DNA of 59,795 nt from an uncultured Monoglobus sp. (GTDB lineage Bacteria; Bacillota; Clostridia; Monoglobales; Monoglobaceae): the NCBI GenBank assembly GCA_947630135.1, contig CANRGH010000015.1:1-59795 (forward strand), in the 5' to 3' direction. The position numbers were made by a program, and so were the translations under genes. Of the stretch, positions 1,583-48,949 are shown piece by piece. The stretch's first letter is position 1; each line of letters starts with the position of its first letter. Under the pieces are notes generated by a model that saw only the letters and a program-made list of their open reading frames with translations, did no database searches and was not told the origin of the DNA.

Positions 1583-3361
1583 ATGAAATTAAAGAAGATT
1601 GTTGCTCTGGCAACATCCGCTGTTATGGCGGTATCGCTTCTCGCCTCCTGCGGCACGAGCTCTACGCAGGGCCACATTGAGCAGGACGGCAAAACGATCT
1701 ACACCTACTACCTCAACATGTACACCCAGGACAGCAAGGGTTACGCTGAGGGTCAGGACGCGAACTTCGCTCAGCTCATCAGAGAGAAGTTCAACGTTCA
1801 GCTTGAGTACGACAGAATTCCCAGAGGCGACTGGGAGACCAAGACAAACCTGTCATACGCGGTTGGCAACGAGGCCGACGTTACGACGGGCGGCAAGGAG
1901 CCCCAGTATAAGAAGTGGGCCACAGAAGGTTATTTGGCGCCCATTCCGCAGGAAGCTTACGCGGGCGACGACTGTATCTTAAAGGATTGGAAGGCTCTCT
2001 GGAGCGAGGAAGACTTTAAGGACGTTCTGGCTCTGGCTAAGAGCTCCGACGGTGAGCTTTACTACCTGCCCACACTGAGACAGGAAAAGGCTCAGATGTG
2101 CTGGGACTACAGAAAAGACGTATTTGATCAGCTGGGCATCAAAGAGTTCCCCAAGACTATTGACGAGCTCTATGACGTATGCGCCAAGCTGAAGGCCGCT
2201 TATCCCGACAAGATTATCATTTCTTGTAACGGCATGGGCACAACATCTCCCGGTTCGGCTATCACGGGCTTCTTCCAGGCTTACTGGATCCCCGAGCTTA
2301 TCCTGACTCAACATTCATATGTTGATCCGGTAACGGGTGAGTATGTTCCCTACGCTCTCACAACCGACGCGGCTCGTGAGATGTACAAGACTCTTAAGAG
2401 ATTTAATGACGCCGGCTTCATCGACAAGGAAATCTTCTCGATCGATAAGGACACATTCTCTTCAAGACTCGCGCAGGATAACTGCTTCATCACCTATAAC
2501 TATGTTTACAACATTGAGGACTTCACAAAGAAGACCAAGGGTACAAACGCCGGCAAGAACGCCGAGTGGGCTTGGACAGCCAACATGGTTACGGCGTATC
2601 CCGAGAAGGGCACGATCTTTAAGAGAGACCCCCTGTACTCTAACTGGGGCCCCGCGTTCAGCGACGGTATTCAGGAGGATCCCGACAGATTTAACGCTCT
2701 GCTCAATATGTTCAACTGGTTCGCAACCGAGGAAGGTCAGCTCTACAACACCTATGGTGTAAAAGAGGATGATCCCGACGAGATCAAGGCGGGCGTTGCT
2801 CCCGGCAACTACAGCTATTCAATGGTAAACGGCGAGCCGCAGTTCAATCCCGGCTGGTATGATGAGAGTAATCCCGAGACCGATAAGGACGAGGATAAGC
2901 TCCTGACAGTTGAGTACGGCTCAATGGGTTCGCAGTTCAAGAAAGAGCAGCACATGTTCGACAGCATCCGCGGTAAGGAAGTTGAGGCTCTGTATGACGC
3001 GTTCATGGCGCAGCCCAACTACTACTACTTCGACCAAATTCCTATGAGATATAACGAAGAGGAAGAGCAGAGATTTGCTGACCTCGAGATCGCTCTTAAC
3101 GCTAAGAGAGACGAGTATATCCAGAGATTTTTCACCGGCGATGTTGATCCCAACAATGACGCTGACTGGAACATGTACATCTCCGACATGAACAAGGTTG
3201 GTCTGCAGGAGTTCATCGAGCTGCAGAAGACCGTTTATGAGAGAACCAAGGCTGAGATCGAGAAGGAAGAGGCCGAGTTGGCCGCTGCCGAGGCTGAGGC
3301 TGACGGCGAGGCTGCTCCCGCTGACGCCGCTCCCGCCGAGGAAGCTCCCGCGGCTGAGTAG
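1583..3361 (+). CDS. Extracellular solute-binding lipoprotein, LplA-like
   Basis: Sugar-binding lipoprotein of the importer, 592 aa, within the range of the large LplA class. The N-terminus is a lipoprotein signal peptide with lipobox LASC, so Cys23 should be lipidated and the protein anchored on the outside of the membrane. The middle shows the periplasmic-binding fold signature of this class (for example 'PTLRQEKAQMCWDYRKDVF'). An AAGGAGGAA ribosome site precedes ATG 1583. The last 40 or so residues are a low-complexity Glu/Ala/Pro tail with no obvious domain. A terminator-like hairpin lies 100 nt downstream. The ligand is probably an oligosaccharide from pectin, inferred from the downstream enzymes. 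Confidence 0.92.
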   Translation: MKLKKIVALATSAVMAVSLLASCGTSSTQGHIEQDGKTIYTYYLNMYTQDSKGYAEGQDANFAQLIREKFNVQLEYDRIPRGDWETKTNLSYAVGNEADVTTGGKEPQYKKWATEGYLAPIPQEAYAGDDCILKDWKALWSEEDFKDVLALAKSSDGELYYLPTLRQEKAQMCWDYRKDVFDQLGIKEFPKTIDELYDVCAKLKAAYPDKIIISCNGMGTTSPGSAITGFFQAYWIPELILTQHSYVDPVTGEYVPYALTTDAAREMYKTLKRFNDAGFIDKEIFSIDKDTFSSRLAQDNCFITYNYVYNIEDFTKKTKGTNAGKNAEWAWTANMVTAYPEKGTIFKRDPLYSNWGPAFSDGIQEDPDRFNALLNMFNWFATEEGQLYNTYGVKEDDPDEIKAGVAPGNYSYSMVNGEPQFNPGWYDESNPETDKDEDKLLTVEYGSMGSQFKKEQHMFDSIRGKEVEALYDAFMAQPNYYYFDQIPMRYNEEEEQRFADLEIALNAKRDEYIQRFFTGDVDPNNDADWNMYISDMNKVGLQEFIELQKTVYERTKAEIEKEEAELAAAEAEADGEAAPADAAPAEEAPAAE

Positions 3362-3462
3362 TCCGGCTTAAAGGTTCATTGCCGAAAAGTCTGAGGCAGC
3401 AGAACGGTAAACAGCGAAAGCCCGAACCGGATAATTGCCGAGACTTAAGGAATTGAAAATCA

Positions 3463-3495
3463 GACAACTGCCAATTATTTGGCAGTTGTCTTTTT
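3463..3495 (+). terminator. Rho-independent terminator after the binding-protein gene
   Basis: A perfect 12-bp stem (GACAACTGCCAA / TTGGCAGTTGTC) with a TTAT loop is followed by TTTTT. It sits between the lipoprotein gene and the pectinesterase gene, whose ribosome site CGGAGGA starts six nucleotides after the T-run. It may therefore attenuate rather than fully separate the two parts of the locus. Confidence 0.85.
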
Positions 3496-3513
3496 CTGTA
3501 CGGAGGATAAAAC

Positions 3514-4452
3514 ATGAACATAATTGTAAGAAAAGATCACAAAACGATCATGCCGGCGCTCGAGGCGGCGCGCCCCGGTGACACGCTGATCCTGCCATCG
3601 GGAATATACCGAGAGAAGGTGTATGTCGATAAGCCGGACATTTCGTTTATAGGCGACGGCCACGTCATGATAACCTATGACGCCGCGAGCGGTGAGCTCG
3701 CGCCGGGCGGCGGGAGCTATGACACGTTCTCATCCGCGACATTGACGATTAAGGAAAGCGCGAAAAACTTTAAGGCCGACAACATAACGATCGAGAACTC
3801 ATATAACCGCCTAGGCCTCGACAGAAAGGTTACGCAGGCCGTCGCGGTAAGCTGCGGCGCTGACGGCGCGGCGTTTTATGACTGCAATATCCTCGGATGG
3901 CAGGACACGCTTTATTTAAGCGGCGGCAGGCAGTTTTTCCTTGACTGCTACATAGAGGGCAGCGTAGATTTTATCTTCGGTGATGCTCAGGTTTTGTTTG
4001 AGGACTGCGATATAAACTGCGTGCGCGAGAGGTCATATATTTCGGCCGCGAACACGTCGGAGTGCGATCCCGCGGGTTTTGTGTTCTATCACTGCTATAT
4101 CAGCGCCTGCGAGGGCTGCGGAGAAATATATCTCGGCCGCCCATGGCGGGCCGAGCGCGAGGGAATTAATTCCGCCACCGCTTTTATCGAGTGCACATAT
4201 AACTGCGATATAGCGCCCGCCGGCTGGCTGCCTTGGCACCTTAAACCCGGTGAGGAAGCTCTGAACACGAGATATTTTGAGTACAAAAACACAAACGGCC
4301 ACGGAGAGCCCGCGGACACGAGCGGCAGGGCGGAATGGAGTCGTCAGCTCACCCGCGCGGAGGCGGAGGAGCTCATGTCATACATAGGAAAATGCGCCAA
4401 ATATCCCGACGAGGACGCGCATGAGCATCATGAACATAATAATGATGCCTGA
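3514..4452 (+). CDS. Pectin methylesterase (CE8), intracellular type
   Basis: Removes methyl groups from esterified galacturonans. The 312-aa right-handed beta-helix protein carries the family motifs in order: 'GWQDTLY' with Asp131, 'VDFIFGDA' with Asp152 (the catalytic aspartate pair), and 'YLGRPWR' with Arg212. No signal peptide is visible: the protein starts directly with 'MNIIVRKDHKTIMPALE', so it should act in the cytoplasm on imported oligomers. The C-terminus is His/Glu-rich. CGGAGGATAA precedes the ATG. It lies between the ABC importer and the polygalacturonase, which fits de-esterification before hydrolysis. Confidence 0.93.
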   Translation: MNIIVRKDHKTIMPALEAARPGDTLILPSGIYREKVYVDKPDISFIGDGHVMITYDAASGELAPGGGSYDTFSSATLTIKESAKNFKADNITIENSYNRLGLDRKVTQAVAVSCGADGAAFYDCNILGWQDTLYLSGGRQFFLDCYIEGSVDFIFGDAQVLFEDCDINCVRERSYISAANTSECDPAGFVFYHCYISACEGCGEIYLGRPWRAEREGINSATAFIECTYNCDIAPAGWLPWHLKPGEEALNTRYFEYKNTNGHGEPADTSGRAEWSRQLTRAEAEELMSYIGKCAKYPDEDAHEHHEHNNDA

Positions 4453-11868: not shown

Positions 11869-11942
11869 TGGCTGCCTGACTAGGATTCGAACCCAGACAA
11901 AGTGAGTCAGAGTCACTCGTGCTACCCTTACACAATCAGGCA
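11869..11942 (-). tRNA. tRNA-Gln (anticodon CTG)
   Basis: The minus strand folds as a cloverleaf. Acceptor arms are TGCCTGA / TCAGGCA with discriminator G and encoded CCA (11869-11871). The anticodon stem-loop is AGTGA-CTCTGAC-TCACT giving anticodon CTG, and the T-arm contains GGTTCGAATCC. It is five nucleotides from the next tRNA and shares its promoter. Confidence 0.95.
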
Positions 11943-11947
11943 ATAAA

Positions 11948-12032
11948 TGGTGCGAGCAGTGGGACTTGAACCCACACGCCATAAGCACACGCCCCTCAAA
12001 CGTGCCTGTCTGCCGGTTCCAGCATGCTCGCA
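11948..12032 (-). tRNA. tRNA-Leu (anticodon GAG)
   Basis: Class II tRNA of 85 nt including an encoded CCA. Acceptor arms are TGCGAGC / GCTCGCA. The anticodon stem-loop CACGT-TTGAGGG-GCGTG gives anticodon GAG. A long variable arm and the T-arm GGGTTCAAGTCCC are present. Confidence 0.95.
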
Positions 12033-25808: not shown

Positions 25809-25826
25809 TATACTTACATAATAAAT

Positions 25827-26086
25827 GCGTTTGAGCGGAAACAAGTAGATGCGTGAAAGTCTCAAGAGAGTTGCCGGGTGCTGCGAGGCAATGACGGAAG
25901 CGTTTTCGAATACATTCCGCGAGCAGTGCACCGAAAGGGTTTGAGCCGTCCGAGTAGGCTGCAACGGGAGTTCCCGTCACAGAACTTAGGTATTGATGAT
26001 ACCTTCTGAGGCCGCGGCCGTGAGGGCGCGGTGAATTGAGGTGGTACCACGGGTGAAACTCGTCCTCTGCTTAAAAAGGAGAGCGG
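25827..26086 (+). ncRNA. T-box leader, specifier probably UAC (tyrosine)
   Basis: The conserved T-box sequence 'AATTGAGGTGGTACCACGGG' is at 26034-26053, followed by a terminator hairpin ending GCGGGTTTTTT (26073-26084). Upstream, Stem I shows AGAGAG, the distal GGTGCTGCGAGGC loop and the specifier context GAA-TAC-ATTCC-GCGAGC (specifier 25911-25913). By alignment with the usual GAA-XXX-A pattern the codon is UAC. It should sense uncharged tRNA-Tyr and permit read-through into the downstream symporter gene. Confidence 0.9.
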
Positions 26087-27802: not shown

Positions 27803-28822
27803 TTATTTTTGTGATAAAAAGCTGTTTAGCTTGTCGGCGGTTTTTATTGCTCTGGCTTTGCTTATATGGGTGTATATATCACGGGTCACTTGAATTGTTG
27901 AATGGCCGAGCAGTTCTTGGGCGTCTTTTACGTCAATGCCTGCCTCAAATAAAATCGTGGCGTATGCGTGGCGGAGCTGGTGCGATGTTATGGATAGGCC
28001 TGTTTCGGCTTGGTATTTTCGCCATAGAATTGTAAACTCTCCGCTCTTTATTATTTCGCCGTCTTTGTTCGGGAAAATAAGGCCGGAAGTTTTTCTTTTG
28101 GTGAGCTCGGAAAACAAGCAATCCGGGATCACTATATGCCGAGTTCCGGCCTCGGTTTTCGGCTGCTTGATATGCGGAAAATTCCCAACATAATAAACGG
28201 ATTTATTCACGCTTACGGTCTTGTTAGTAAAATCGACATCACTGTAATTGAGCGCCAATGCTTCGCCTCGGCGCATGCCCGTATAAAGCACGAAATAGGC
28301 ATAGAAACCGAATGTTTTGTCAATGCTGTTTTTTACGATCTCGATCTCTTCCAGAGTCGGAGCGTCTCGCTTGGTTTTGGGAAGGTTTTTCGGGATACTG
28401 ATATATTGACAGGGGTTGACGCTCACATAATTATTAATTACCGCATATTTAAAGATCAAGTTTAAAACGAGCAAGCGTGTCCTTACTGTTTTTTGCGCGT
28501 ATCCTTTGGCCGCCATGCTTTGAATAAAATTACTGACGTCTTTGGATTGAATATCTTTGATCGACATGCCACTAAATCTATTAACAATTTGTTCGAGGGC
28601 GGGCTTATATTGCCTTATGGTATTGTGTTCTATATTTTCAAAATGCTCGGCCGCCCACTCATCGGCGACAACTTCAAAGGGCTTGCCCTTTTCTTCTGCC
28701 TCTCGGTATTCGAGCATTTTTCTATTGATCTCGCGCTCGGATTTGCCGTAGAAGGAGACTACTTTTCCGTTAACGCGGATCTGGCGGCAGTATCGTCCGT
28801 CTTTGCGCTTTTTTAAACCCAT
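27803..28822 (-). CDS. int: Phage tyrosine recombinase (integrase)
   Basis: 339-aa site-specific recombinase. N-terminal AP2-like arm-binding region ('GRYCRQIRVNGKVVSFYG'), SAM-like core-binding domain (about 50-140), and a catalytic domain with all key residues: Arg in 'YTGMRRGEALAL', Lys in 'KTEAGTRHIVI', 'HQLRHAYAT', His in 'LLGHSTIQVT', and Tyr in 'DIYTHIS'. It lies next to the tRNA remnant at 27719, as usual for integrases that use tRNA genes. An AGGTG ribosome site precedes the start. Confidence 0.96.
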   Translation of the reverse strand: MGLKKRKDGRYCRQIRVNGKVVSFYGKSEREINRKMLEYREAEEKGKPFEVVADEWAAEHFENIEHNTIRQYKPALEQIVNRFSGMSIKDIQSKDVSNFIQSMAAKGYAQKTVRTRLLVLNLIFKYAVINNYVSVNPCQYISIPKNLPKTKRDAPTLEEIEIVKNSIDKTFGFYAYFVLYTGMRRGEALALNYSDVDFTNKTVSVNKSVYYVGNFPHIKQPKTEAGTRHIVIPDCLFSELTKRKTSGLIFPNKDGEIIKSGEFTILWRKYQAETGLSITSHQLRHAYATILFEAGIDVKDAQELLGHSTIQVTRDIYTHISKARAIKTADKLNSFLSQK

Positions 28823-29962: not shown

Positions 29963-30580
29963 TTATTTACATTTTTCTTTGGTTAAGGTTATGTAATAAT
30001 ATTCGTCTTTATTGTCGATACAGCGGGTTTCTTTGTCCGGACTTAAGACGGTGTCTTCATCGTCACGGTCAGTGAAGTTTAAATAGCCGCCGTTTGAGAA
30101 AAAGATATAGTTTATGTGATATAAATAATCGGTACGTCTTTCTATTTCGGCGGGCAGCTTATATTCTTTGCGAATGGCGGAGCCATCAGGGTCTCTTGAC
30201 ATGATCACATAATATTTTGCTTTGTATTCCTCGGCCTCGTAGAAGTCACCGATCTGCATTGTCTTATATCCGAGTAATCTCGGGATATAAAGAATTGAAA
30301 GAGCAAAATATATTAAAATGACGATAAAGAATACTTTACTCTTTATTTTCTTTAATCTTCGTTTTCTTATTGCCTCTATTATATAATCTATACAACATAA
30401 TATAAAAGAGCCAAAGAATATCGCAGACGAATCTAAAACCAGTGATCTGATCGGAATATCAAATTCTATTCCGTACCAAAATAAGATCAAGCACAGAACA
30501 AAAGGCGTCAACGCAGCACCCGCTTCAAACCGCTCATCATCATTTAGTTTATCTAATATGCCATTAAACAGATCTTTCAT
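29963..30580 (-). CDS. Hypothetical membrane protein in the lysogeny block
   Basis: 205 aa. Three hydrophobic segments in the first 110 residues ('AALTPFVLCLILFWYGIEF', 'SAIFFGSFILCCIDYII', 'VFFIVILIYFALSILYI') and a soluble C-terminal part. Its start codon overlaps the repressor stop (ATGA), so it is coupled to repressor translation. Expression with the repressor suggests a lysogenic conversion or superinfection-exclusion role, but nothing in the sequence proves it. No family recognised. Confidence 0.72.
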   Translation of the reverse strand: MKDLFNGILDKLNDDERFEAGAALTPFVLCLILFWYGIEFDIPIRSLVLDSSAIFFGSFILCCIDYIIEAIRKRRLKKIKSKVFFIVILIYFALSILYIPRLLGYKTMQIGDFYEAEEYKAKYYVIMSRDPDGSAIRKEYKLPAEIERRTDYLYHINYIFFSNGGYLNFTDRDDEDTVLSPDKETRCIDNKDEYYYITLTKEKCK

Positions 30581-31989
30581 TTTGTTTTATTTCGGATTCC
30601 GATAACTTTTCCGTAGCAGTAAAAGTTATCGTCAGACGTGATGATAATTTTTTCATATTTGGGGTTATGTGAAATAAAACCGTTTGATTCCTTTTCTTTA
30701 ATATAGACTTGATCGCCAAGTCTAAACAAACATATATCCCCATCCTCAACACTAGGTTGTTGCTTTATATATACTATGTTACCGTCGTGCAACGTTGGCT
30801 CCATACTATCACCTGATACACGAATAAGAAATGATGTTTCTTGTGGTTCGTCTGGTGATAAGCTAACCATCTCAAATGGGGATTCGTCTAAGAACTGACC
30901 GGTACCGGCAGCGGCAGGCACAAGATATTGGGGTACTTCTTTTTTAAAAGCATAATAATCTGATACAATTTGACCATTTTGTTTTATACTGAATTTTATA
31001 TCGTTATTGTTGTCGTAAGAATTGTCATATTCTGCGATATTAATATTTTCTTTTAATGTTATTGTTAAGTCCGGGTTTTGTTTAACATCTTCCCAATTTG
31101 TATAATTAAAGAAGAATTTTTGAAGAACCACATCCAAAAATTCTGTATATGAAGTTGAGATATCTATATATAGATTAAATAATGCCATAAAAGTTTCGTT
31201 ATGTTCTTTGCATAATTCCTTTTTGTATTCGCTAAGCATAATTTCTCCGCTTAAAGAAGCATGAGGATCAAACGGAACATTTTTAAAACTTGTTACGTTA
31301 TATGACGCATTATTTATAAAATAGTCATTATATGCATTTGTTTTTTCATGATCAAAATGTGTTAACATATTTCTAAAATCAGACATGATTGATCGTTTTT
31401 TCGATTTACCATTTTTTAAGGTTTCTTTATATATTTTATCTAACTTTTCTTTTTCTTTTAAAACTTTTTTGTCGTTCAAGAAATCCTTTAATACATTTTG
31501 ATAACACTTAAATCTTTTTCTTATATCTGTGTTGAAAATATTATCAAGATCAATATAAATTAAATCTAAGGCTTCATCAATAAAAATCACAGTATATTCG
31601 AATATCGGCATACAATAATCACTGTTATTTTGTAATAAATTGTAAAATAACGTATGTGCACAATATGTTTTATTTCTTGCTTCCCATAAATAGGACATAT
31701 ATCTTGTAAGAATATGATCTTGATTAAAAACTTCCTTTAAATTCAACGTATATGTAAATTTGTTATCATTGGTTAATTTTAATGCAGTTTTTGGCTGTTC
31801 TCGTTCAAGAAGATAATCGGCAGATACATGGAAATAATCACAAAGCATATTTAAACTATCATATTTTGGTAGCTGACGACCGGTTTTCCAATTACTGATG
31901 AGGGCTTCAGAAATGCCGGTATCTTTTGCAAGTTTATAGGCAGTAATATTTCTATCTTGTATAAGTTTCACAATAATATCTTTAAACAT
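30577..31989 (-). CDS. Phage repressor: HTH + HEPN-like insert + S24 peptidase
   Basis: 470 aa, roughly twice the length of ordinary CI-like repressors. Residues 1-62 are an XRE-type helix-turn-helix ('YKLAKDTGISEALISNWKTG'). Residues about 350-470 are a LexA/CI-type S24 domain with cleavage site Ala361-Gly362, Ser395 in 'GDSMEP' and Lys431 in 'VYIKE'. Between them lie some 280 mostly helical residues with 'SDFRNMLTHFDHEK' (Arg206...His211, an RX4H motif as in HEPN nucleases). The gene is strongly AT-rich compared with its neighbours. It should hold lysogeny and be inactivated by RecA-stimulated self-cleavage; a nuclease function of the insert is an inference. Confidence 0.85.
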   Translation of the reverse strand: MFKDIIVKLIQDRNITAYKLAKDTGISEALISNWKTGRQLPKYDSLNMLCDYFHVSADYLLEREQPKTALKLTNDNKFTYTLNLKEVFNQDHILTRYMSYLWEARNKTYCAHTLFYNLLQNNSDYCMPIFEYTVIFIDEALDLIYIDLDNIFNTDIRKRFKCYQNVLKDFLNDKKVLKEKEKLDKIYKETLKNGKSKKRSIMSDFRNMLTHFDHEKTNAYNDYFINNASYNVTSFKNVPFDPHASLSGEIMLSEYKKELCKEHNETFMALFNLYIDISTSYTEFLDVVLQKFFFNYTNWEDVKQNPDLTITLKENINIAEYDNSYDNNNDIKFSIKQNGQIVSDYYAFKKEVPQYLVPAAAGTGQFLDESPFEMVSLSPDEPQETSFLIRVSGDSMEPTLHDGNIVYIKQQPSVEDGDICLFRLGDQVYIKEKESNGFISHNPKYEKIIITSDDNFYCYGKVIGIRNKTK

Positions 31990-33255: not shown

Positions 33256-33459
33256 ATGCCGAGAGAGAAACCCGCTTATCGCGATAACTTGGAATCCGTT
33301 TTGAGGTTCCTTAGGGAAAAATACGGCGATAACCGACATCTTATGCTGATGTGCGACGTGCAGGAGTATACCGGGCGAAAGTACGGTTATTGCAAAAAGC
33401 ATTATTTGGCGGGGCGGAAGGATATTTCCGCCGAGACATTTGCACGGACGTTGAGCTAA
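33256..33459 (+). CDS. Small early protein, possibly winged-helix/excisionase-like
   Basis: 67 aa, basic. 'LMLMCDVQEYTGRKYGYCKK' followed by 'HYLAGRKDISAETFARTLS' has the spacing of a 'binding-motif plus wing' of excisionase-type proteins, but similarity is too weak to assert. Start ATG directly at the end of element I copy A. The stop overlaps the beginning of the next family III repeat. Confidence 0.55.
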   Translation: MPREKPAYRDNLESVLRFLREKYGDNRHLMLMCDVQEYTGRKYGYCKKHYLAGRKDISAETFARTLS

Positions 33460-34309: not shown

Positions 34310-34545
34310 ACATAGTAATTAGCGATTAGCGAATAGCGAATAGGAATCCTCCCCCTCAGTCGCCTTCGGCGACAGCTCCCCCTCCCTTAAAAGGGAAGGG
34401 GAGCCAACGTAGTGATTAGCGAATAGGAAATAGGGCTTCCGCGGAACGCCAACGGAGTGCGTTTTGCGGGAAGGAGGAGCCGACCCGGAGCAGGTGAGAC
34501 TTTACTGCTTGCAGGAAAGCGAACAAGCGTAGGGATCGGCGACGA
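34310..34545 (+). repeat. Composite intergenic cassette: III + CCTCAGTC palindrome + III + element I (copy B)
   Basis: Family III at 34310-34344 and again at 34407-34432. Between them is a 'CCCCCTCAGTCGCC-TTC-GGCGACAGCTCCCCC' palindromic repeat (34346-34405). Element I copy B runs from 34433, with hairpin 2 CTTTACTG-CTTG-CAGGAAAG (34500-34519) and tail ACAAGCGTAGGGATCGGCGACGA. This accounts for the 295-nt gap between genes. Confidence 0.8.
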
Positions 34546-35250: not shown

Positions 35251-36558
35251 ATGAAAATTACACGAGGAAGGATCGCGGGGGCGCATAAGGTGGTTGTTTA
35301 TGGGCCGGAAGGCATCGGAAAGACCACATTTGCGTCGAGGTTCCCCGACCCGCTGTTTATCGACACCGAGGGGAGCACAAAGTATTTGGACGTGGCAAGG
35401 CTGCCGAAGCCCGAGAGCTGGAACGAACTTTTGCAGGAGATCAAATGGGTTATTGAAAATCCCGACTGCTGCAAGACGCTTGTTATCGACACGATCGACT
35501 GGGCGGAGCGGCTTTGCGTTGAGCACGTACTCAAGGAAAACGGCAAAAACGGCATTGAGGACTTCGGATACGGCAAGGGTTACATATATGTCGCCGAGGC
35601 CTTTGAAAAGAGTTTGAAGCTATTGGATGAGGTTATTAGACGCGGCATAAACGTTGTGCTCACTGCACACTGTCTGATCAGAAAATTTGAACAGCCTGAT
35701 GAGATGGGCGCTTATGACAGATACGAGCTGAAGCTCGGCAAAAAGACGGCGTCTCAGACCGCGCCGCTCGTTAAGGAATGGTCTGATATGCTGCTTTTTG
35801 CCAACTACAAGACCGTGTCGGTCGCGACCGACGACAAGGGCAAAAATCACAAGGCCCAGGGCGGAAGACGCGTTATGTATACCGCTCATCACCCCTGCTG
35901 GGACGCAAAAAACAGACACGGCCTCGATGATGAGCTTGATTTTGATTTTAAGTATATCGCGCATATATTCGATGAGCCGACGCGGACCGCGACAAAAAAG
36001 GAAATCGAACGTGAAGAGACCGAGAAGGTCGAGCGGGAGTTTGAGGCGGCGATAGATGAGGAGGAGAACCCCCCTCAGTCGGCTGCGCAGGCAGATCCCC
36101 CGAGGGGGAGCCAAAATAACGAACCCCTCTCAGTCAGCTCCGCTGACAGCTCTCCTCAAGGGGCGAGTCGGGCGGATAATATCCGCCCCTACGGTGATGC
36201 GGGGAGGCGGGACGTCGAGGGCGCCGTCCCCTACGAAGATGGGGGGAGGCGGGACGTCGAGGGCGCCGTCCCCTACGAAGATGGGGGGAGGCGGGACGTC
36301 GAGGCGCCGTCCCCTACGGAAACTTCCGGAAGCCGGAAGAGAGGGAAGGCGAGGATTCCGCCGGAGCTTCGGAAGCTCATGGAGAACAGCGCCGTGACGG
36401 AGGAGGATATTCAAAAAGCTGTTTCTAAAAAGGGATATTTCCCGGCTGATATGACGATCGAGGATTATCCCGAGGACTTTGTTAAAGACTGCCTGATCGG
36501 GGCATGGGATCAGGTTTACGACATGATCTTGAAAGACGCCGACGACATGCCGTTTTGA
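35251..36558 (+). CDS. Sak4-like phage recombination ATPase (AAA_24) with repeat-derived insert
   Basis: 435 aa. Walker A 'GPEGIGKTT' (18-26), Walker B-like 'TLVIDTIDWAE', and a core extending to about residue 250 ('YTAHHPCWDAKNRHGLDD'). Such RecA-like ATPases work in phage single-strand annealing. Residues about 272-360 are encoded by genomic palindromic repeats (36064-36330), including a 14-residue unit EDGGRRDVEGAVPY in tandem. The ancestral frame resumes after them and ends 'YDMILKDADDMPF'. It is followed by a DUF669 gene, the usual partner order. Confidence 0.88.
   Translation: MKITRGRIAGAHKVVVYGPEGIGKTTFASRFPDPLFIDTEGSTKYLDVARLPKPESWNELLQEIKWVIENPDCCKTLVIDTIDWAERLCVEHVLKENGKNGIEDFGYGKGYIYVAEAFEKSLKLLDEVIRRGINVVLTAHCLIRKFEQPDEMGAYDRYELKLGKKTASQTAPLVKEWSDMLLFANYKTVSVATDDKGKNHKAQGGRRVMYTAHHPCWDAKNRHGLDDELDFDFKYIAHIFDEPTRTATKKEIEREETEKVEREFEAAIDEEENPPQSAAQADPPRGSQNNEPLSVSSADSSPQGASRADNIRPYGDAGRRDVEGAVPYEDGGRRDVEGAVPYEDGGRRDVEAPSPTETSGSRKRGKARIPPELRKLMENSAVTEEDIQKAVSKKGYFPADMTIEDYPEDFVKDCLIGAWDQVYDMILKDADDMPF
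36064..36330 (+). repeat. In-frame cluster of genomic palindromic repeats inside the ATPase gene
   Basis: Contains two 'CCCCTCAGTCGGCTGCGCAG'-type repeats, the CGGGCGGATAATATCCGCCC palindrome (36169-36188), and a 42-bp unit (starting GGGGAGGCGGGACGTCGAGG) repeated from 36201, 36243 and 36285. The third copy is one base shorter, which restores the reading frame of the host gene. Related pieces are in the MITE-like element at 12685-12941. Confidence 0.85.
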
Positions 36559-36592: not shown

Positions 36593-37042
36593 ATGGCAAA
36601 CGATAGAGAATATTCATGGGACGATACCATTGTAAATGACGAGCCCGAATTTGTGCTGCTACCCGACGGGGAATATGAATACGAAGTCAAGAGCTTTGAG
36701 AGGCAGAGATACCAGGGCAGCGCGAAAGAGAACGGACTGCCGCCGTGCAATATGGCGATCCTGAACCTTGAGATCAAAAACGACAAGGGTCTGTGCAGCG
36801 TTCGCGAAAGGCTGTATTTGCACAGCCGCTGCGAGGGGCTGCTGAGCGCGTTTTTTGTCAGCATAGGTCAGAAAAAGAAGGGCGAAAAGCTCGCGATGGA
36901 CTGGAACAAGGTCGTCGGGGCGAAAGGCAGATGCAAGCTGGGACACAGAGAGTACAACGGCGAAAAATACAACCAGGTCACAAGATTCCTGCCGCCCGAT
37001 GAAAACGCATCGAACAAAACATACACGCCCGGGAGGTTCTAA
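36593..37042 (+). CDS. DUF669-family phage protein (ssDNA-binding-like)
   Basis: 149 aa. 'EFVLLPDGEYEYEVKSFERQ', 'CNMAILNLEIKND' and the terminal 'GRF' match DUF669, a phage family almost always found next to Sak4-like ATPases and thought to act as single-strand DNA-binding or annealing partner. Its stop overlaps the helicase start (TAATG). GAGAGGAGAAAC precedes the ATG. Confidence 0.88.
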   Translation: MANDREYSWDDTIVNDEPEFVLLPDGEYEYEVKSFERQRYQGSAKENGLPPCNMAILNLEIKNDKGLCSVRERLYLHSRCEGLLSAFFVSIGQKKKGEKLAMDWNKVVGAKGRCKLGHREYNGEKYNQVTRFLPPDENASNKTYTPGRF

Positions 37043-43795: not shown

Positions 43796-44179
43796 ATGGC
43801 CTTAAGTGAAGAAAAACGTGCCGAAATTGTGGCGCTGTGGGCGTCTCTTAAAAACAAAAGCAAAATATCGGATTTGGTCGGCGTCTCGGAGGGCACGGTC
43901 AGGAACGTAATCAAGAAGCTTGAGAGCAATGAGGATTATATAAACATATACGAGAGATCGAGGTCAAAGTTTGTTGAAAAATCTACGACGGTAATTGATA
44001 TGGCTTTTGACAGACTTATCGAGAAGTTGTGCGATCCGGAGGATGATGTGACCGTTAATCAGCTTTCGACCGTTATCGGGACTTTGTTTGACAAGCGGGC
44101 GCTCGCCGTTGGCGACAGCACCGAAAATTCAAAGATAACCGTGGAGCTTTCAAAAGAGGCGGCGGAATATGCAAAGTAA
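43796..44179 (+). CDS. Terminase small subunit
   Basis: 127 aa. N-terminal helix-turn-helix ('KISDLVGVSEGTVRNVIKKL') for binding phage DNA and a helical C-terminus for oligomerisation. Ends 11 nt inside the large-subunit gene. AAAGGGGGCG precedes the ATG. Assignment rests on the HTH, size and position. Confidence 0.82.
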   Translation: MALSEEKRAEIVALWASLKNKSKISDLVGVSEGTVRNVIKKLESNEDYINIYERSRSKFVEKSTTVIDMAFDRLIEKLCDPEDDVTVNQLSTVIGTLFDKRALAVGDSTENSKITVELSKEAAEYAK

Positions 44180-45575
44180 TGAAGAAAAAGCTCCGCTTTT
44201 TCAGAACAAATCGCCCACCCGGGTTGCGCGCGCCGCCTCCGCCCGCGCTATAAGACTGGATTTTTCGTTGGTTAACGAGAAGCAGGAGCGGTTTTTTAAG
44301 TCCGAAAAGAGGTTTATCGCTTACGGCGGGGCGCGCGGCGGCGGGAAGTCTTGGGCGCTCAGGCATAAGGCGGCGCTGCTGGCGCTGAATTATGCGGGGA
44401 TTAAGATGCTGCTGCTGCGCAGGACGTACCAGGAGCTGGAGCAGAACCATGTTACGGAACTGACAGCCATGTTAAACGGCGTGGCGAAATACAATATGCA
44501 GCGGAAAATATTCACGTTCCCGAACGGCAGCATATTAAAGCTGGGCTACTGCGCGGCGGAGTCTGATGTGCTGCAATATCAGGGACAAGAATATGACGTT
44601 ATATTCATCGACGAGGCGACGCAGTTCACCGAATATCAGTTTTCGGCCTTGACGGCGTGTGTCAGAGGCGCAAATAATTTCCCGAAGCGGATGTATTTGA
44701 CATGCAACCCCGGAGGCGTGGGGCACGAATGGGTAAAGCGACTTTTTGTGTCGAGGCGCTATAAAGATAGCGAGCGGCCCGACGACTATGAGTTTATACC
44801 CGCGACGGTTTTTGACAACAAGGCGTTGATCGATAACGATCCCGGATATGTGGACATGCTGAATAATCTGCCGGACGATATACGCGAGGCGTGGCGTGAC
44901 GGCAACTGGGATATGCTGGCGGGTCGGTACTTTACCGAGTTTGACAGGCAGATACATGTAATTGAGCCGTTTGAGATCCCCGAGCATTGGCGGCGGTACA
45001 GATCTATTGACTACGGTCTGGACTGCCTGGCGTGTTTGTGGATCGCGGTGGATGAGCGCGGAAACTATTATATTTACCGTGAATACGCCGAGAGCGACAA
45101 GACGATCGCGGACGGAGCGGCTGATCTGGTCGAACTGTCGGGAAGCGAGCAATATGATTATACCGTGGCGCCAACCGATCTTTGGGCGCGGTCGCAGGAG
45201 AGCGCGAAGGCGAAGGCGGATTTGTTCCGCGAAAATGGTGTGCCGCTGATGAAGGGCAGTAACAACCGCGAGGCGGGGTGGCTGGCGATAAAAGATATGC
45301 TGCGGGTCTCGGGCGGCGATAGCAGACTCAAAATTTTCAGCGTGTGTGGACGGCTGATTGAGGACTTGCCCGCGCTGCAGCGGGACCAAAAGCGGCCGAC
45401 CGACTGCATGATCGAGCCGCATGAGATAACGCATGTACCGGACGCGCTGCGGTACTTCGCGCTGGAGTATACGTTCCCGTCCAAAAAGCCGAAGGCTGAG
45501 ATGAGCGCGATCGCCGAGCATGAGCAGCGGCTTTTGAAGCGGGCAAGAAGAGGTAGAAAAGCTCCGCTTTTCTAA
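44169..45575 (+). CDS. terL: Terminase large subunit
   Basis: DNA-packaging motor ATPase and nuclease, 468 aa. Walker A 'GGARGGGKS' (53-61), Walker B 'VIFIDEATQ', coupling 'TCNPGGVGHEWVK', and nuclease motifs beginning 'RSIDYGLDCLACLW'. Residues 5-29 (EEKAPLFQNKSPTRVARAAS plus ARAIR) and the last residues 'RGRKAPLF' are both encoded by copies of intergenic element II, so both termini have been rewritten by repeats. Overlaps the small subunit gene. Confidence 0.95.
   Translation: MQSNEEKAPLFQNKSPTRVARAASARAIRLDFSLVNEKQERFFKSEKRFIAYGGARGGGKSWALRHKAALLALNYAGIKMLLLRRTYQELEQNHVTELTAMLNGVAKYNMQRKIFTFPNGSILKLGYCAAESDVLQYQGQEYDVIFIDEATQFTEYQFSALTACVRGANNFPKRMYLTCNPGGVGHEWVKRLFVSRRYKDSERPDDYEFIPATVFDNKALIDNDPGYVDMLNNLPDDIREAWRDGNWDMLAGRYFTEFDRQIHVIEPFEIPEHWRRYRSIDYGLDCLACLWIAVDERGNYYIYREYAESDKTIADGAADLVELSGSEQYDYTVAPTDLWARSQESAKAKADLFRENGVPLMKGSNNREAGWLAIKDMLRVSGGDSRLKIFSVCGRLIEDLPALQRDQKRPTDCMIEPHEITHVPDALRYFALEYTFPSKKPKAEMSAIAEHEQRLLKRARRGRKAPLF
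44181..44251 (+). repeat. Element II (copy 2) inside the terL 5' end
   Basis: GAAAAAGC-TCC-GCTTTTTC hairpin, then CGCCCACCCGGGTTGCGCGC and a 12-nt loop CCGCCTCCGCCC with a shortened right arm. It is in frame with terL and supplies about 20 codons. Confidence 0.8.
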
Positions 45576-45808
45576 ATTGATTTGCCCGCCCGGTTGCGCG
45601 CGCCGCCTCCGCCCCGCGCGCTGAACAACATTGTGATAAAGGATTAATAATAAATAAAAGCGCCCGATGGGCGCAAGGGCTCCCACGAAGCGCCAGCGGA
45701 GCGCACTTCGTGGGAAAGAGGAACCGACCCGGAGCGGGTGAGACTTTCACGCTTGCGTGAAAGCAAACAAGCGTAGGGATCGGTGACGACGAAAGGATTG
45801 GTGACGAA
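45549..45808 (+). repeat. Tandem cassettes: element II (copy 3) + hp0 + element I (copy D)
   Basis: Element II at 45549-45624 starts within the last codons of terL. hp0 GCGCCC-GAT-GGGCGC is at 45660-45674. Element I from 45677 has hairpin 1 CCCACGAAG...CTTCGTGGG, the conserved GGGAAAGAGGAAC, a middle stem ACCCG-GAG-CGGGT, hairpin 2 CTTTCACG-CTTG-CGTGAAAG (45744-45763), and a doubled tail (GGATCGGTGACGAC, GGATTGGTGACGA). Confidence 0.85.
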
Positions 45809-46141
45809 ATGAATGTTAAGAAGGTTAAGAGGCGGTGTTGTGTGCGGGGGTGCGGGAACACCGATTGTTATTCGATCTCAAAGGGAACAGAGTTCGGCGG
45901 GATCATTATCTGCAAGAGCTGTCTTGAGGAAGCTCTTAAGGCGATAAAGAGCGGTGGAACGGCAAAGACGAGCCGCGCGGTGAAAAAGGCGGCTCCGTTG
46001 TTTTATCATCCGGGAAGTGAACCTCCCTCTCCGTCGCCTGCGGCGACACCTCTCTCTCCCAAAGGAGGGCGAGGCAAGCGGGCGGATAATATCCGCCCCT
46101 ACGGTGATGGGGGAGAAAGAACCGAAAATAAGGAGATGTGA
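45809..46141 (+). CDS. Small zinc-finger phage protein with repeat-encoded tail
   Basis: 110 aa. 'CCVRGCGNTDCYSISKG' and 'IICKSCLEEAL' give a four- to five-Cys zinc-finger-like core in the first 50 residues. From about residue 71 the protein is encoded by the 'CCTCCCTCTCCGTCGCC' and GGGCGGATAATATCCGCCC repeats (46019-46105), ending ADNIRPYGDGG-ERTENKEM. The core is probably the ancestral protein. Confidence 0.6.
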   Translation: MNVKKVKRRCCVRGCGNTDCYSISKGTEFGGIIICKSCLEEALKAIKSGGTAKTSRAVKKAAPLFYHPGSEPPSPSPAATPLSPKGGRGKRADNIRPYGDGGERTENKEM

Positions 46142-46145
46142 TGGC

Positions 46146-46355
46146 ATGCAGTTTATTTGTTTGGCGTTGTGCGGGGTTATTGCGGTTATTGTTATAATTT
46201 CGCATATTGAGCGCAGGGACCTTTATGATCGACTTATGAGCTGTGACTTAGAGGAGTATCAGAGAATTACGGAGCGTTCGGAAGAGGCGCCGAGGCAGGA
46301 GAGCGCGCATGTTAGGGCGATTAAAAAGTGGCGCAATATGGAGAATGGGGAATAA
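46146..46355 (+). CDS. Small single-span membrane protein
   Basis: 69 aa. One N-terminal hydrophobic helix 'FICLALCGVIAVIVIISHI' and a charged helical tail. ATG 46146 follows AAGGAGATGTG; the frame is open further upstream only because it runs through repeats. Role unknown. Confidence 0.6.
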   Translation: MQFICLALCGVIAVIVIISHIERRDLYDRLMSCDLEEYQRITERSEEAPRQESAHVRAIKKWRNMENGE

Positions 46356-46615
46356 AACCCCTCTCAGGCCGCAAAGCGGCCAGCTCTCCCCAAGGGGCGA
46401 GCCACGGGCGGGTAATACCCGCCCCTACGAGATGATGGGGCAGGGTTCCCACGAAGCGCCAGCGGAGCGCACTTCGTGGGAAAGAGGAACAAACTTGAAG
46501 CGATGAGCAAAGGCCGCTTGCGGACTTTGCGATAAGCGGAAAGATTTGCGACGATCGCCCGCCCGGTTGCGCGCGCCCCTCCGCCCCGCGCGCTATTGAA
46601 AGGAGATTTGACTAT
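46356..46615 (+). repeat. Composite intergenic region: palindromic repeats + element I (copy E) + element II (copy 4)
   Basis: 'CCCCTCTCAGGCCGCAAAGC' palindrome (46357-46390), ACGGGCGGGTAATACCCGCC (46404-46423), element I from 46443 with hairpin 2 GCAAAG-G-CCG-CTTG-CGG-A-CTTTGC (46507-46530). Directly after its GCGACGA tail comes the second half of element II (46556-46600), then AAAGGAGATTTGACTAT before the portal ATG. Confidence 0.8.
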
Positions 46616-48949
46616 ATGGAATTTCGATTTACGCCGAGGCAGAAGGGGCTTTTCGGGAAACGGATAAGGCGGGCCGGAGGCAATGCGGGAGATACGTATG
46701 AGCCGAAGGATACCGTTAAGGAGTCCGAGATTGAGAAGGCGAAAAATAGCAGGGTTACGCCATATCAGCACAGGATGACCGTATATGACGCGCCGGAGCA
46801 GTCGGGAGCGGAGGACGGCTTTAATTCGGGCCTTGAGGAGCGGATCACTCGGCAGAGCGCGGGAGCGAGAGACGAGAACGCGCAAATCATGCAGCGGGGC
46901 GCGGTATCGGCCGTGCTGTCCGATATGGAGCAGCCGACAAAGTACATAGACGAGCCGACGGGCGATATCTGGCTGCTGCCGCAGGAGATACCGAAAGCGG
47001 CTGCGACGCCGCCCGACGATATTGACAATGCTCTCGGGACAGACGCGGACGGGAATATTCTGTTTAAGGACGATGTTATCGCGTACATAAAAGACGAGCT
47101 TGAGAAACGGCGCAGCGAGAGGCTGCCGCTTGAGCTTCAATGGCAGCTCAACAGCAATTTTTATGACGGGAACCAATATTGTGACATCAATCCCGCTTGC
47201 GACGAGATCATGCAATATCCGATTGCCGAAGGCGAGGAAGGGAAGCAGCGCGAGGTGTTTAACCGTATCGCGCCGCTGATTGAGACGCGGGTTGCGAACC
47301 TTAAAAAAATCAACTATTCCATGCGGGTAAATCCGTTGACCAATGAGACTGACGACGTTCAGAAGGCGCGCGTGTCGACTGCGATACTTAACCACGCGCA
47401 GCAGAAAAGCGGATTTAATGCCAAAAAGGACGCGCTGATACTCTGGAACGAGATGTGCGGCTCGTGCTTTTTCACGACATGGTGGGACCCGGAGGCGGGA
47501 GAGATCACTTCGGCTGTGCGGGAGACGATGACGGACGACGACGGACGCAGTGCGAGCAAGCTGCGTTTTTTTCATGAGGGCGACATTGACTACGGCTTGT
47601 TGACGCCGTATGAGGTTTATCCCGAGAGCATATTCAAACAGACGGTGGCGGATCAGCAGAGTATTATTGTTGAGCAGGTGCGAACCGTTGATGAGATCGA
47701 AAAGCTCTACGGCGTGAGGCCCGAGGGAACCGAGATCGACACGTTCACTTTAACTCCGATACCCGCAGCGGGCGGGTATGGATATGAGGCGACCGTCGTT
47801 TCGATGGGAAAGGCTAAAATGAAGAACTGTCAGACGGTGGTGACATATTTCGAGAGGGCGTCAAAGGCGTTCCCAAGAGGCAGAATGGCGGTACTTATCG
47901 GCGACGAGGACCTTGTATATTACGGCGAAATGCCTTATGACGAGATACCGATAATACGCTGCGTGTGCAAGGAGCGGCCGGGTCAGTTTTTCGGGAAATC
48001 CGTGATTGAGGAACTGATACCGCTGCAGCGGGCGTATAACACGGCCTGCAACGACATTGGAGATTATCTTAAAACGGTAAAAACGCCGCAATATTTGGTG
48101 TATGAAGGCACGGTTGACGTGGACGAGTGGGAGGAACGCGCGGGAATACCGGGCGCGATCCTGGTTTATAAGGGAAATCCGAATGTTCCGCCGATCCCAA
48201 GACCGAGCACGGCGTTTTCGGGTGAGGTATTCACGCAAAAATACGATTTGGAGCGGCAAATGGAATATGTCGCGGCGGTGTCGCAGCTCATGGTTTACGG
48301 CGAGACGCCGCAGGGCGTGACGTCGGGCACGGCTATTGAGTCGCTGCGCGATATAGACAATACGCGGCTTGCGCTGACGGGTGATTATATCCGGGCTTCC
48401 GTGATTGAAATGGCGAAGATATGGCTTTCGATGTACAAGCGGTACGCGAGCGGCTGGCGCGTTATCAGAACGGTCGGCACAAACGATTTGGGAGATGTAC
48501 TGGTCTGGAGCAGCGAGGACATAACGAGCTATGATGTGACGTTTACGACCGAAAATGAATTGATGTATTCCGATCAGAACCAGTGGCAGAGGCTGTTGCA
48601 GCTTTTGACGTCCGGTATTAATGATCAGAGGATCATTGAGGAGGCCGTTGAAAAGGCGCGCGAATACATCAAGAGCGGCGCGGCAAACAGCGCGGCGACA
48701 GTGAATGAGCTTCAGGAACAGGCGGCGGCGCGAGAGAACACCATGCTTGAGCGCGGCGTGCTGCCGAGCGTTCGGGAGTACGACAACCACAGGCTGCACG
48801 CGGAGGAGCACCTTAAATATATGCTGCAGCTTGAGTTTGAGCGTATGCGGAGAGACAGGCCGCGGATCGCGGAGGCGATGATGGCGCATTATCGGGAGCA
48901 TATACAGAGGTTGAATTATATTGCGCCGCAAGCGGCGCAGGAGAGGTAG
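46616..48949 (+). CDS. Phage portal protein (P22-like)
   Basis: 777 aa, the long size of P22-type portals. 'LELQWQLNSNFYDGNQYCDI', 'REVFNRIAPLIETRVANL' and 'PGQFFGKSVIEELIPLQRAY' are typical. The dodecameric ring at the capsid vertex through which DNA is packaged. The N-terminus M-x-FRFTPRQ is repeated in the next protein. The last codons lie at the start of element II copy 5. An AAAGGAG site within the repeat tail precedes the ATG. Confidence 0.9.
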   Translation: MEFRFTPRQKGLFGKRIRRAGGNAGDTYEPKDTVKESEIEKAKNSRVTPYQHRMTVYDAPEQSGAEDGFNSGLEERITRQSAGARDENAQIMQRGAVSAVLSDMEQPTKYIDEPTGDIWLLPQEIPKAAATPPDDIDNALGTDADGNILFKDDVIAYIKDELEKRRSERLPLELQWQLNSNFYDGNQYCDINPACDEIMQYPIAEGEEGKQREVFNRIAPLIETRVANLKKINYSMRVNPLTNETDDVQKARVSTAILNHAQQKSGFNAKKDALILWNEMCGSCFFTTWWDPEAGEITSAVRETMTDDDGRSASKLRFFHEGDIDYGLLTPYEVYPESIFKQTVADQQSIIVEQVRTVDEIEKLYGVRPEGTEIDTFTLTPIPAAGGYGYEATVVSMGKAKMKNCQTVVTYFERASKAFPRGRMAVLIGDEDLVYYGEMPYDEIPIIRCVCKERPGQFFGKSVIEELIPLQRAYNTACNDIGDYLKTVKTPQYLVYEGTVDVDEWEERAGIPGAILVYKGNPNVPPIPRPSTAFSGEVFTQKYDLERQMEYVAAVSQLMVYGETPQGVTSGTAIESLRDIDNTRLALTGDYIRASVIEMAKIWLSMYKRYASGWRVIRTVGTNDLGDVLVWSSEDITSYDVTFTTENELMYSDQNQWQRLLQLLTSGINDQRIIEEAVEKAREYIKSGAANSAATVNELQEQAAARENTMLERGVLPSVREYDNHRLHAEEHLKYMLQLEFERMRRDRPRIAEAMMAHYREHIQRLNYIAPQAAQER

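Follow-up and report, generated by a model that had tools for sequence, protein, structure and literature searches.

Host GTAG-tagged repeats in frame within the linker of a Sak4-like ATPase gene of a prophage

Background and relation to known repeats

The Rickettsia palindromic elements (RPE) reportedly go back to a description by Ogata et al. in 2000. In the excerpted text of PMC2229807 these are palindromic repeats that lie in frame within conserved genes and are translated, and at least one of the resulting proteins stayed active. GTAG-tagged REPs, as the excerpts of Di Nocera et al. (2013, PMC3733652) define them, are short palindromes ending in GTAG that reach hundreds of copies or more per genome, are clustered or paired, and are mostly intergenic and sometimes translated within ORFs. 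According to the same excerpts, intragenic clusters encode 43-82 amino acids in bacterial genes, many cases fall in genes of DNA synthesis and repair, and flexible linkers are proposed as REP-tolerant sites. The phyla given in those excerpts do not include Firmicutes, and no word in the main text of PMC3733652 begins with 'phage'. REPs are regarded as extragenic, with intragenic cases described for bacterial genes; a literature search returned no paper on REPs inside phage genes, which is no proof of absence.

The locus described here lies in a stretch of 59,795 nucleotides (the window) and contains palindromic repeats inside a Sak4-like ATPase gene. It resembles the GTAG-tagged REPs in ORFs, so far as the excerpts of PMC3733652 describe them, in its tag, copy number, clusters and pairs, predicted translation within an ORF and linker site. 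It differs from them in that the gene belongs to a prophage, in a host with presumably Clostridia-like genome relatives. With the RPE, as characterised in the excerpts of PMC2229807, it shares palindromic repeats in frame inside a conserved gene; the RPE sequence is different and 105-146 bp long, whereas the tagged palindromes here measure 23-26 nt, and the RPE terminal tag is given in the excerpts of PMC3733652 as CGTC, against GTAG here. On tag and length an RPE was ruled out. The Rickettsia elements, to which the original prediction had compared the locus, remain an analogue, but the best parallel is provided by the GTAG-tagged REPs in ORFs, as excerpted from PMC3733652, and not by the long RPE.

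The Sak4-like ATPase gene and its prophage

The gene (35251-36558, forward strand) encodes 435 amino acids in a frame that is open across the insert. In profile searches the ORF matched PF13479 (E 1.4e-63) and the Sak4-like PHROG family phrog_124 (E 1.6e-78), and a Foldseek search with its structural model returned RecA structures and the Sak4 structure 8rc5 among the best matches; a sequence search against solved structures gave no match at E<=0.01. The family profile match and the RecA fold together place the product among the Sak4-like SSAPs, and the ORF is the gene for the Sak4-like RecA-fold ATPase of a prophage, with putative annealing activity. It shares the RecA fold and PF13479 with the Sak4-like annealing ATPases (phrog_124, 8rc5), and here adjoins a DUF669 gene (36593-37042, forward strand; PF05037, E 7.4e-05; phrog_378, ssDNA-binding, E 5.7e-04). 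Helicase and primase genes likewise follow the ATPase gene, and the prophage also holds RusA, terminase, portal and capsid genes. An integrase-like ORF (27803-28822) and a repressor-like ORF (30577-31989) carry labels read from the sequence, not search matches. The window also contains a T-box leader (25821-26070) ahead of a transporter-like ORF, and two tRNA genes at 11872-12031 on the reverse strand.

Three more repeat families were observed in the prophage (window positions 33132-53188), mainly at gene junctions and in some cases just upstream of likely ribosome-binding sites. They occur at positions 34432, 45676, 46442 and 51921 (family 1), at 44170, 45541, 46556, 48935 and 52430 (family 2), and at 33458, 34309, 34406, 35091, 51420 and 53146 (family 3). 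The type found at 48935 has seven of its nine genome matches within its own contig. The terminase ORF overlaps one junction repeat with its first codons (44169-44251) and another copy with its end (45541-45622); its true start may lie downstream.

Architecture of the insert

The repeat-derived insert occupies 36070-36318 on the forward strand (249 nt, 83 codons, G+C 0.69). Repeats are present in the longer interval originally proposed, 36064-36330 (267 nt, 89 codons), but the repeat-derived part is confined to these 249 nt. The insert is composed of two A-type hairpins and four GTAG-tagged palindromes, one of the GGGCGG type and three of the GGGACG type. The A-type modules, without a GTAG tag, lie at 36070-36112 and 36124-36168 (forward strand), and the segment of the second has matches genome-wide. 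They had been taken for two identical palindromes; both copies exist, but the second starts CCCCTCTCAGTC and therefore holds TCTCAGTC, not CCTCAGTC. The GGGCGG-type palindrome follows at 36170-36192 (forward strand). Like the other three tagged palindromes it ends in CTAC, the complement of GTAG, the tag being thus read on the other strand.

A unit of 42 bp (14 codons) was correctly foreseen to occur in three copies, which are arranged in tandem at 36186-36311 (forward strand) with ungapped identities to copy 1 of 100, 93 and 79%. The GGGACG-type palindromes are located at 36209-36234, 36251-36276 and 36293-36317, all on the forward strand; the first two are the same 26-nt sequence and the third, with 25 nt, is 1 nt shorter. 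The exact stems beside the tag are 8 and 6 bp long, within the 5-13 bp given for GTAG-tagged REPs in the excerpts of PMC3733652. The peptides encoded by the insert include stretches around RADNIRPYGDAGR and DVEGAVPYEDGGR.

No inverted pair of at least 12 nt was found in 35900-36500, so that terminal inverted repeats do not bound the insert, and a MITE was ruled out. In an Rfam search of the whole window at the gathering threshold no family covered the insert, and folding of the insert RNA as a whole gave an unremarkable z of -1.64.

Reading frame and coding character

The three forward frames of the insert contain 0, 0 and 4 stops, and GC-rich repeats of this kind are therefore easily read through. 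Among composition-matched shuffles of the insert a given frame is open in 16.5%, against 2.4% for generic window DNA. The codon score is -3.1 for 36064-36330 (89 codons), compared with +8.8 to +20.9 per 60 codons in segments of the core and +16.0 over 75 codons of the tail. The score of the insert is as expected for unadapted DNA, and suggests that the insert is young or unconstrained.

The frame of the tail depends on the 25-nt third palindrome. This copy had been interpreted as having lost one base, and in this array it does have 25 nt against 26 nt, but the shorter form recurs elsewhere: an identical 25-mer is present at one other place in this genome (C39:8828), and the matches listed for the other genus genomes include four more. 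The arithmetic fits the proposal that the original frame resumes through the shorter copy, and such frame compensation may plausibly have occurred.

Distribution in the host genome and genus

Within its own genome of 2.35 Mb the 267-nt stretch is matched 94 times at E<=1e-3, itself included. The search patterns for the two palindrome types, both with the GTAG/CTAC tag built in, gave 170 genome matches for the GGGCGG type, a count slightly inflated by a few nested double matches, and 60 for the GGGACG type; the reversed-pattern control gave 0 in each case. The repeats in the ATPase gene are thus, as had been claimed, real genome repeats and not a product of chance. Across the genus, the GGGCGG type is present in 10 and the GGGACG type in 8 of 12 genomes, and the former was found in 17 of 51 genomes of the order. 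Neighbouring palindromes within 120 bp of each other are arranged in the +- orientation in 52 cases, in -+ in 33 and in the same direction in 40. High copy number, dispersal, a mostly intergenic location, and pairs and clusters of defined orientation are the features of GTAG-tagged REPs, and judged by these the host repeats have the architecture of that class.

In several intergenic copies an A module lies directly 5' of a GTAG palindrome, and so the insert is made of the same cassettes. Two more cassettes were observed in the prophage. A cassette of an A module and a GGGCGG-type palindrome (46022-46112, forward strand) makes up the C-terminal third of a small ORF with cysteine pairs (45809-46141), where the coding score is weak, and shares its reading frame (RADNIRPYGDGGE) with the copy in the ATPase. 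The third, an A module with a GTAG palindrome (46351-46429, forward strand), is situated at or after the end of an ORF that stops at 46355.

A census was made of 86 stretches around repeat clusters, in which codon usage was scored on both sides of 116 unique clusters with 248 elements; it covers 139 GGGCGG-type elements (genome count 170) and 60 of the GGGACG type (genome count 60). Some open frame of suitable length accommodates 33 of the 116 clusters. Coding scores exceed 5 to the left and right of a single one, the cluster of the ATPase (32.4 and 16.9), and no other intragenic candidate of that standing was found among the 116, the codon score being a rough gene finder from which degenerate repeats would escape. 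Clear coding on both sides was likewise seen for none of 94 clusters from 77 loci, which come mostly from other genus genomes, with some overlap and a few from G000.

The Y1 transposase (PF01797), whose superfamily includes the RAYTs, has 0 matches in this genome, which differs in this respect from the described GTAG-tagged REPs, as does the cluster in also holding untagged A-type hairpins. PF01797 matches were obtained in two of the 11 other genus genomes (G003 and G007) and, within the order, in G042, G038 and G041. The repeats nearest to such matches are one element about 430 bp away (L213) and a pair about 220 bp away (L219), with no clear flanking. A Y1 transposase was rejected as the mover, since it is absent here and the matches elsewhere neither track repeat abundance nor are clearly flanked by repeats. 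Assignment to the RAYT-mobilised REP/REPIN was rejected as well, the genome having no repeat-flanked Y1-type transposase. The repeats may possibly have spread by RAYT-independent copying, through a RAYT since lost, or by recombination; with a GTAG repeat that is mobile or copied and no Y1 transposase in the genome, the mode of spread becomes testable.

Comparison with homologues

Matches were found in eight of 100 related genomes searched; the ATPase itself was matched in G001 and G009 only, and the other six genomes matched the repeat-encoded peptides only. The stretch between core and tail is 126 aa long here versus 44 aa in G001 and 49 aa in G009, and the genomes of these two genus homologues have 2 and 0 GGGCGG-type matches and none of the GGGACG type. 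For a wider comparison, the ORF of the window, the two genus members and the best 80 loci each from the larger sets of viral contigs and genome contigs were combined to 163 ORFs, from which one not closed by a stop was removed, leaving 162 homologues.

Linker length varies from 29 to 137 aa across the 162 homologues, without conserved sequence. Linkers of at least 126 aa occur in three sequences including the query, and the long linkers are unlike each other. A conserved linker of similar length in distant homologues, which would speak against an insertion, was not seen: five others have linkers of 115-137 aa, and these are not conserved. GTAG hairpins are present in the linker of only one homologue of the 162, the query, and the expected absence of the insert from relatives is thereby borne out. 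Hairpins with an exact stem of at least 6 bp number four in the linkers (30,330 bp in total), all from the query gene, and four in the cores (116,808 bp) of the compared homologues. As had also been proposed, the insert separates the ATPase core from a conserved C-terminal tail (residues 368-435, 36352-36555, forward strand), which follows in frame and whose tryptophan is conserved in 162 of 162 homologues. Among the Sak4-like ATPases compared, this member is the only one whose linker before the tail has gained length from repeat DNA. No strain with an empty site, that is, an insert-free version of this gene copy, was found.

The query tail is not an outlier, ranking 43 of 161 sequences. The query deviates at 7 of 101 highly conserved columns of the core, tied for the most among the 162, and at 4 of 20 conserved columns of the tail. 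Its tail scores 0.477 and 0.462 against the two genus relatives, which score 0.615 against each other; this relative-rate comparison is suggestive at most. The core deviations and the divergence of the tail could reflect a mildly relaxed constraint on the query gene.

The structure model, built with 71 aligned sequences, gives the core (residues 1-245, 35251-35985, forward strand) pLDDT values of mostly 84-98 per 10-residue block, with 70-80 at residues 151-170 and 211-220. Residues 241-370 are modelled as coil with pLDDT of about 45-57, the insert itself at about 45-51, and the tail as helical, with 93-97 in the blocks covering 371-430. All relatives show variation in the linker, and the model has it disordered, with a confidently predicted core on one side and a confident tail on the other; the repeats thus lengthened a pre-existing disordered linker and did not create one. 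The original prediction, in which the repeats became a linker, fails on this point, as every homologue already has a linker and the repeats only lengthened one.

Origin and tolerance of the insert

The insertion of host repeats in frame in a phage gene is confirmed, and the earlier interpretation of the repeats as an in-frame protein linker is partly supported. Repeat identity, position and frame, absence in homologues, the retained tail and near-uniqueness among the clusters examined are directly established. The most probable history, in which we place good though not full confidence, is that a cluster of host GTAG-tagged repeats, in which A-type hairpins precede GTAG palindromes, inserted into the recombinase gene of the prophage. 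Its landing site would have been the linker, disordered and variable in length, that joins the RecA-fold core to the helical C-terminal tail. The insert would then have been lengthened by tandem duplication of the 42-bp (14-codon) unit. The gene would stay open because the repeats are GC-rich, poor in stops and 249 nt in total, and their translation would add 83 amino acids to the flexible linker. The direction from host to prophage, the duplication history, neutral tolerance, translation and activity are the parts of this history that we infer. The insertion was most likely tolerated because of its landing place.

It is unlikely that the insertion has inactivated or is inactivating the gene, with the frame open merely by luck in stop-poor repeats of a decaying prophage. 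Two of the three forward frames of the insert, and the given frame in 16.5% of shuffles, are open, the seven deviating core columns are tied for the most, and the query tail is further from its genus relatives than these are from each other, all of which would agree with decay; yet the tail remains in frame, is confidently modelled as helical, has the codon score of +16.0 and is no outlier among 161 sequences, and the neighbouring recombination, replication and head genes of the prophage match families over long open frames. We give still less credence to selective retention of the insert, for instance through an effect of the longer linker or of mRNA hairpins on recombinase activity or operon expression. 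Such a role would be in keeping with the enlargement of the array in multiples of codons and with the published REP insertions, which the excerpts of PMC3733652 describe as frequent in replication and repair genes, and is opposed by homologue linkers of widely differing length without conserved sequence, the unexceptional fold of the whole insert and its unadapted codon usage.

Least probable of all, and very improbable in itself, is an assembly artefact by which repeat copies were misjoined inside a prophage gene. With more than a hundred repeat sites and draft contigs, the tandem array could be mis-sized, but unique gene sequence runs on in frame at both sides of the insert, a random join would seldom preserve the frame, and the assembly is 99.49% complete with a contamination of 0.02.

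GTAG palindromes in other viral genes

IMG/VR contains exact matches to the two palindromes on 2 and 2 contigs. On one contig (L388), an ORF at 2553-3755 of the reverse strand encodes a phage capsid protein (PF05065, E 6.1e-22); ahead of the capsid domain, in a variable stretch, it holds a GTAG palindrome that is read in frame as VGADIIRP. In 11 of its 12 homologues the alignment reaches the palindrome stretch, and all 11 are without the palindrome. A looser palindrome pattern matched at least 120 stretches in IMG/VR. The fetched viral loci contain at least 206 palindromes, of which, among those counted, 115 lie in some open frame, many of these being possibly shadow frames.

Of 19 distinct viral ORFs scanned, seven match a family to the left and to the right of the palindrome, five have matches that are not on both sides and seven have none. 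The seven ORFs matched on both sides are two terminases, two portals, a portal-MuF ORF, a Mu-type transposase and an integrase. Of 22 portal genes that are close homologues (L522-L543, from 80 kept loci), three have a 47-bp GTAG palindrome pair that is translated, four a look-alike peptide, and 15 neither. Among 20 close terminase homologues (L602-L621) the site is readable in 13, with palindromes in differing numbers in 11 and none in two. These portal and terminase cases are not independent events, because contigs of one virus recur in the sets; they nevertheless show gain or loss of REPs between close viral relatives, an event of the same kind as that proposed for the Sak4-like gene, which the gene of the window alone cannot reveal. 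The palindromes found in these viral genes also show that host-type repeats reach phage DNA.

A wider proposal, to which we attach only tentative belief, is that host REPs regularly use temperate phages as a substrate. During residence or replication of the phage they would insert in frame at permissive loops of genes for recombination, packaging and the capsid, would give rise to length variation at these places and would be transferred by phages to other hosts. If this is true, viral genes with host-type REPs, such as the Sak4-like gene and the capsid, portal and terminase genes from IMG/VR, are records of REP traffic and of the host of the virus. REPs in viral genes offer a possible sequence tag tying uncultured viruses to REP-rich hosts. 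Where they are read in frame, as in the recombination, capsid, portal and terminase genes, their presence or absence in close relatives provides a natural experiment on the protein segments that tolerate foreign peptides.

The GTAG palindromes were noted at two sites inside the Mu-type transposase (L391, 1860-4238), inside the integrase (L404, 7378-9432, reverse strand) and inside the portal-MuF ORF (L472, 897-3347). In L396, L397, L405, L522-L543 and L602-L621, 47-bp GTAG pairs at one site are present, absent or doubled between close relatives.
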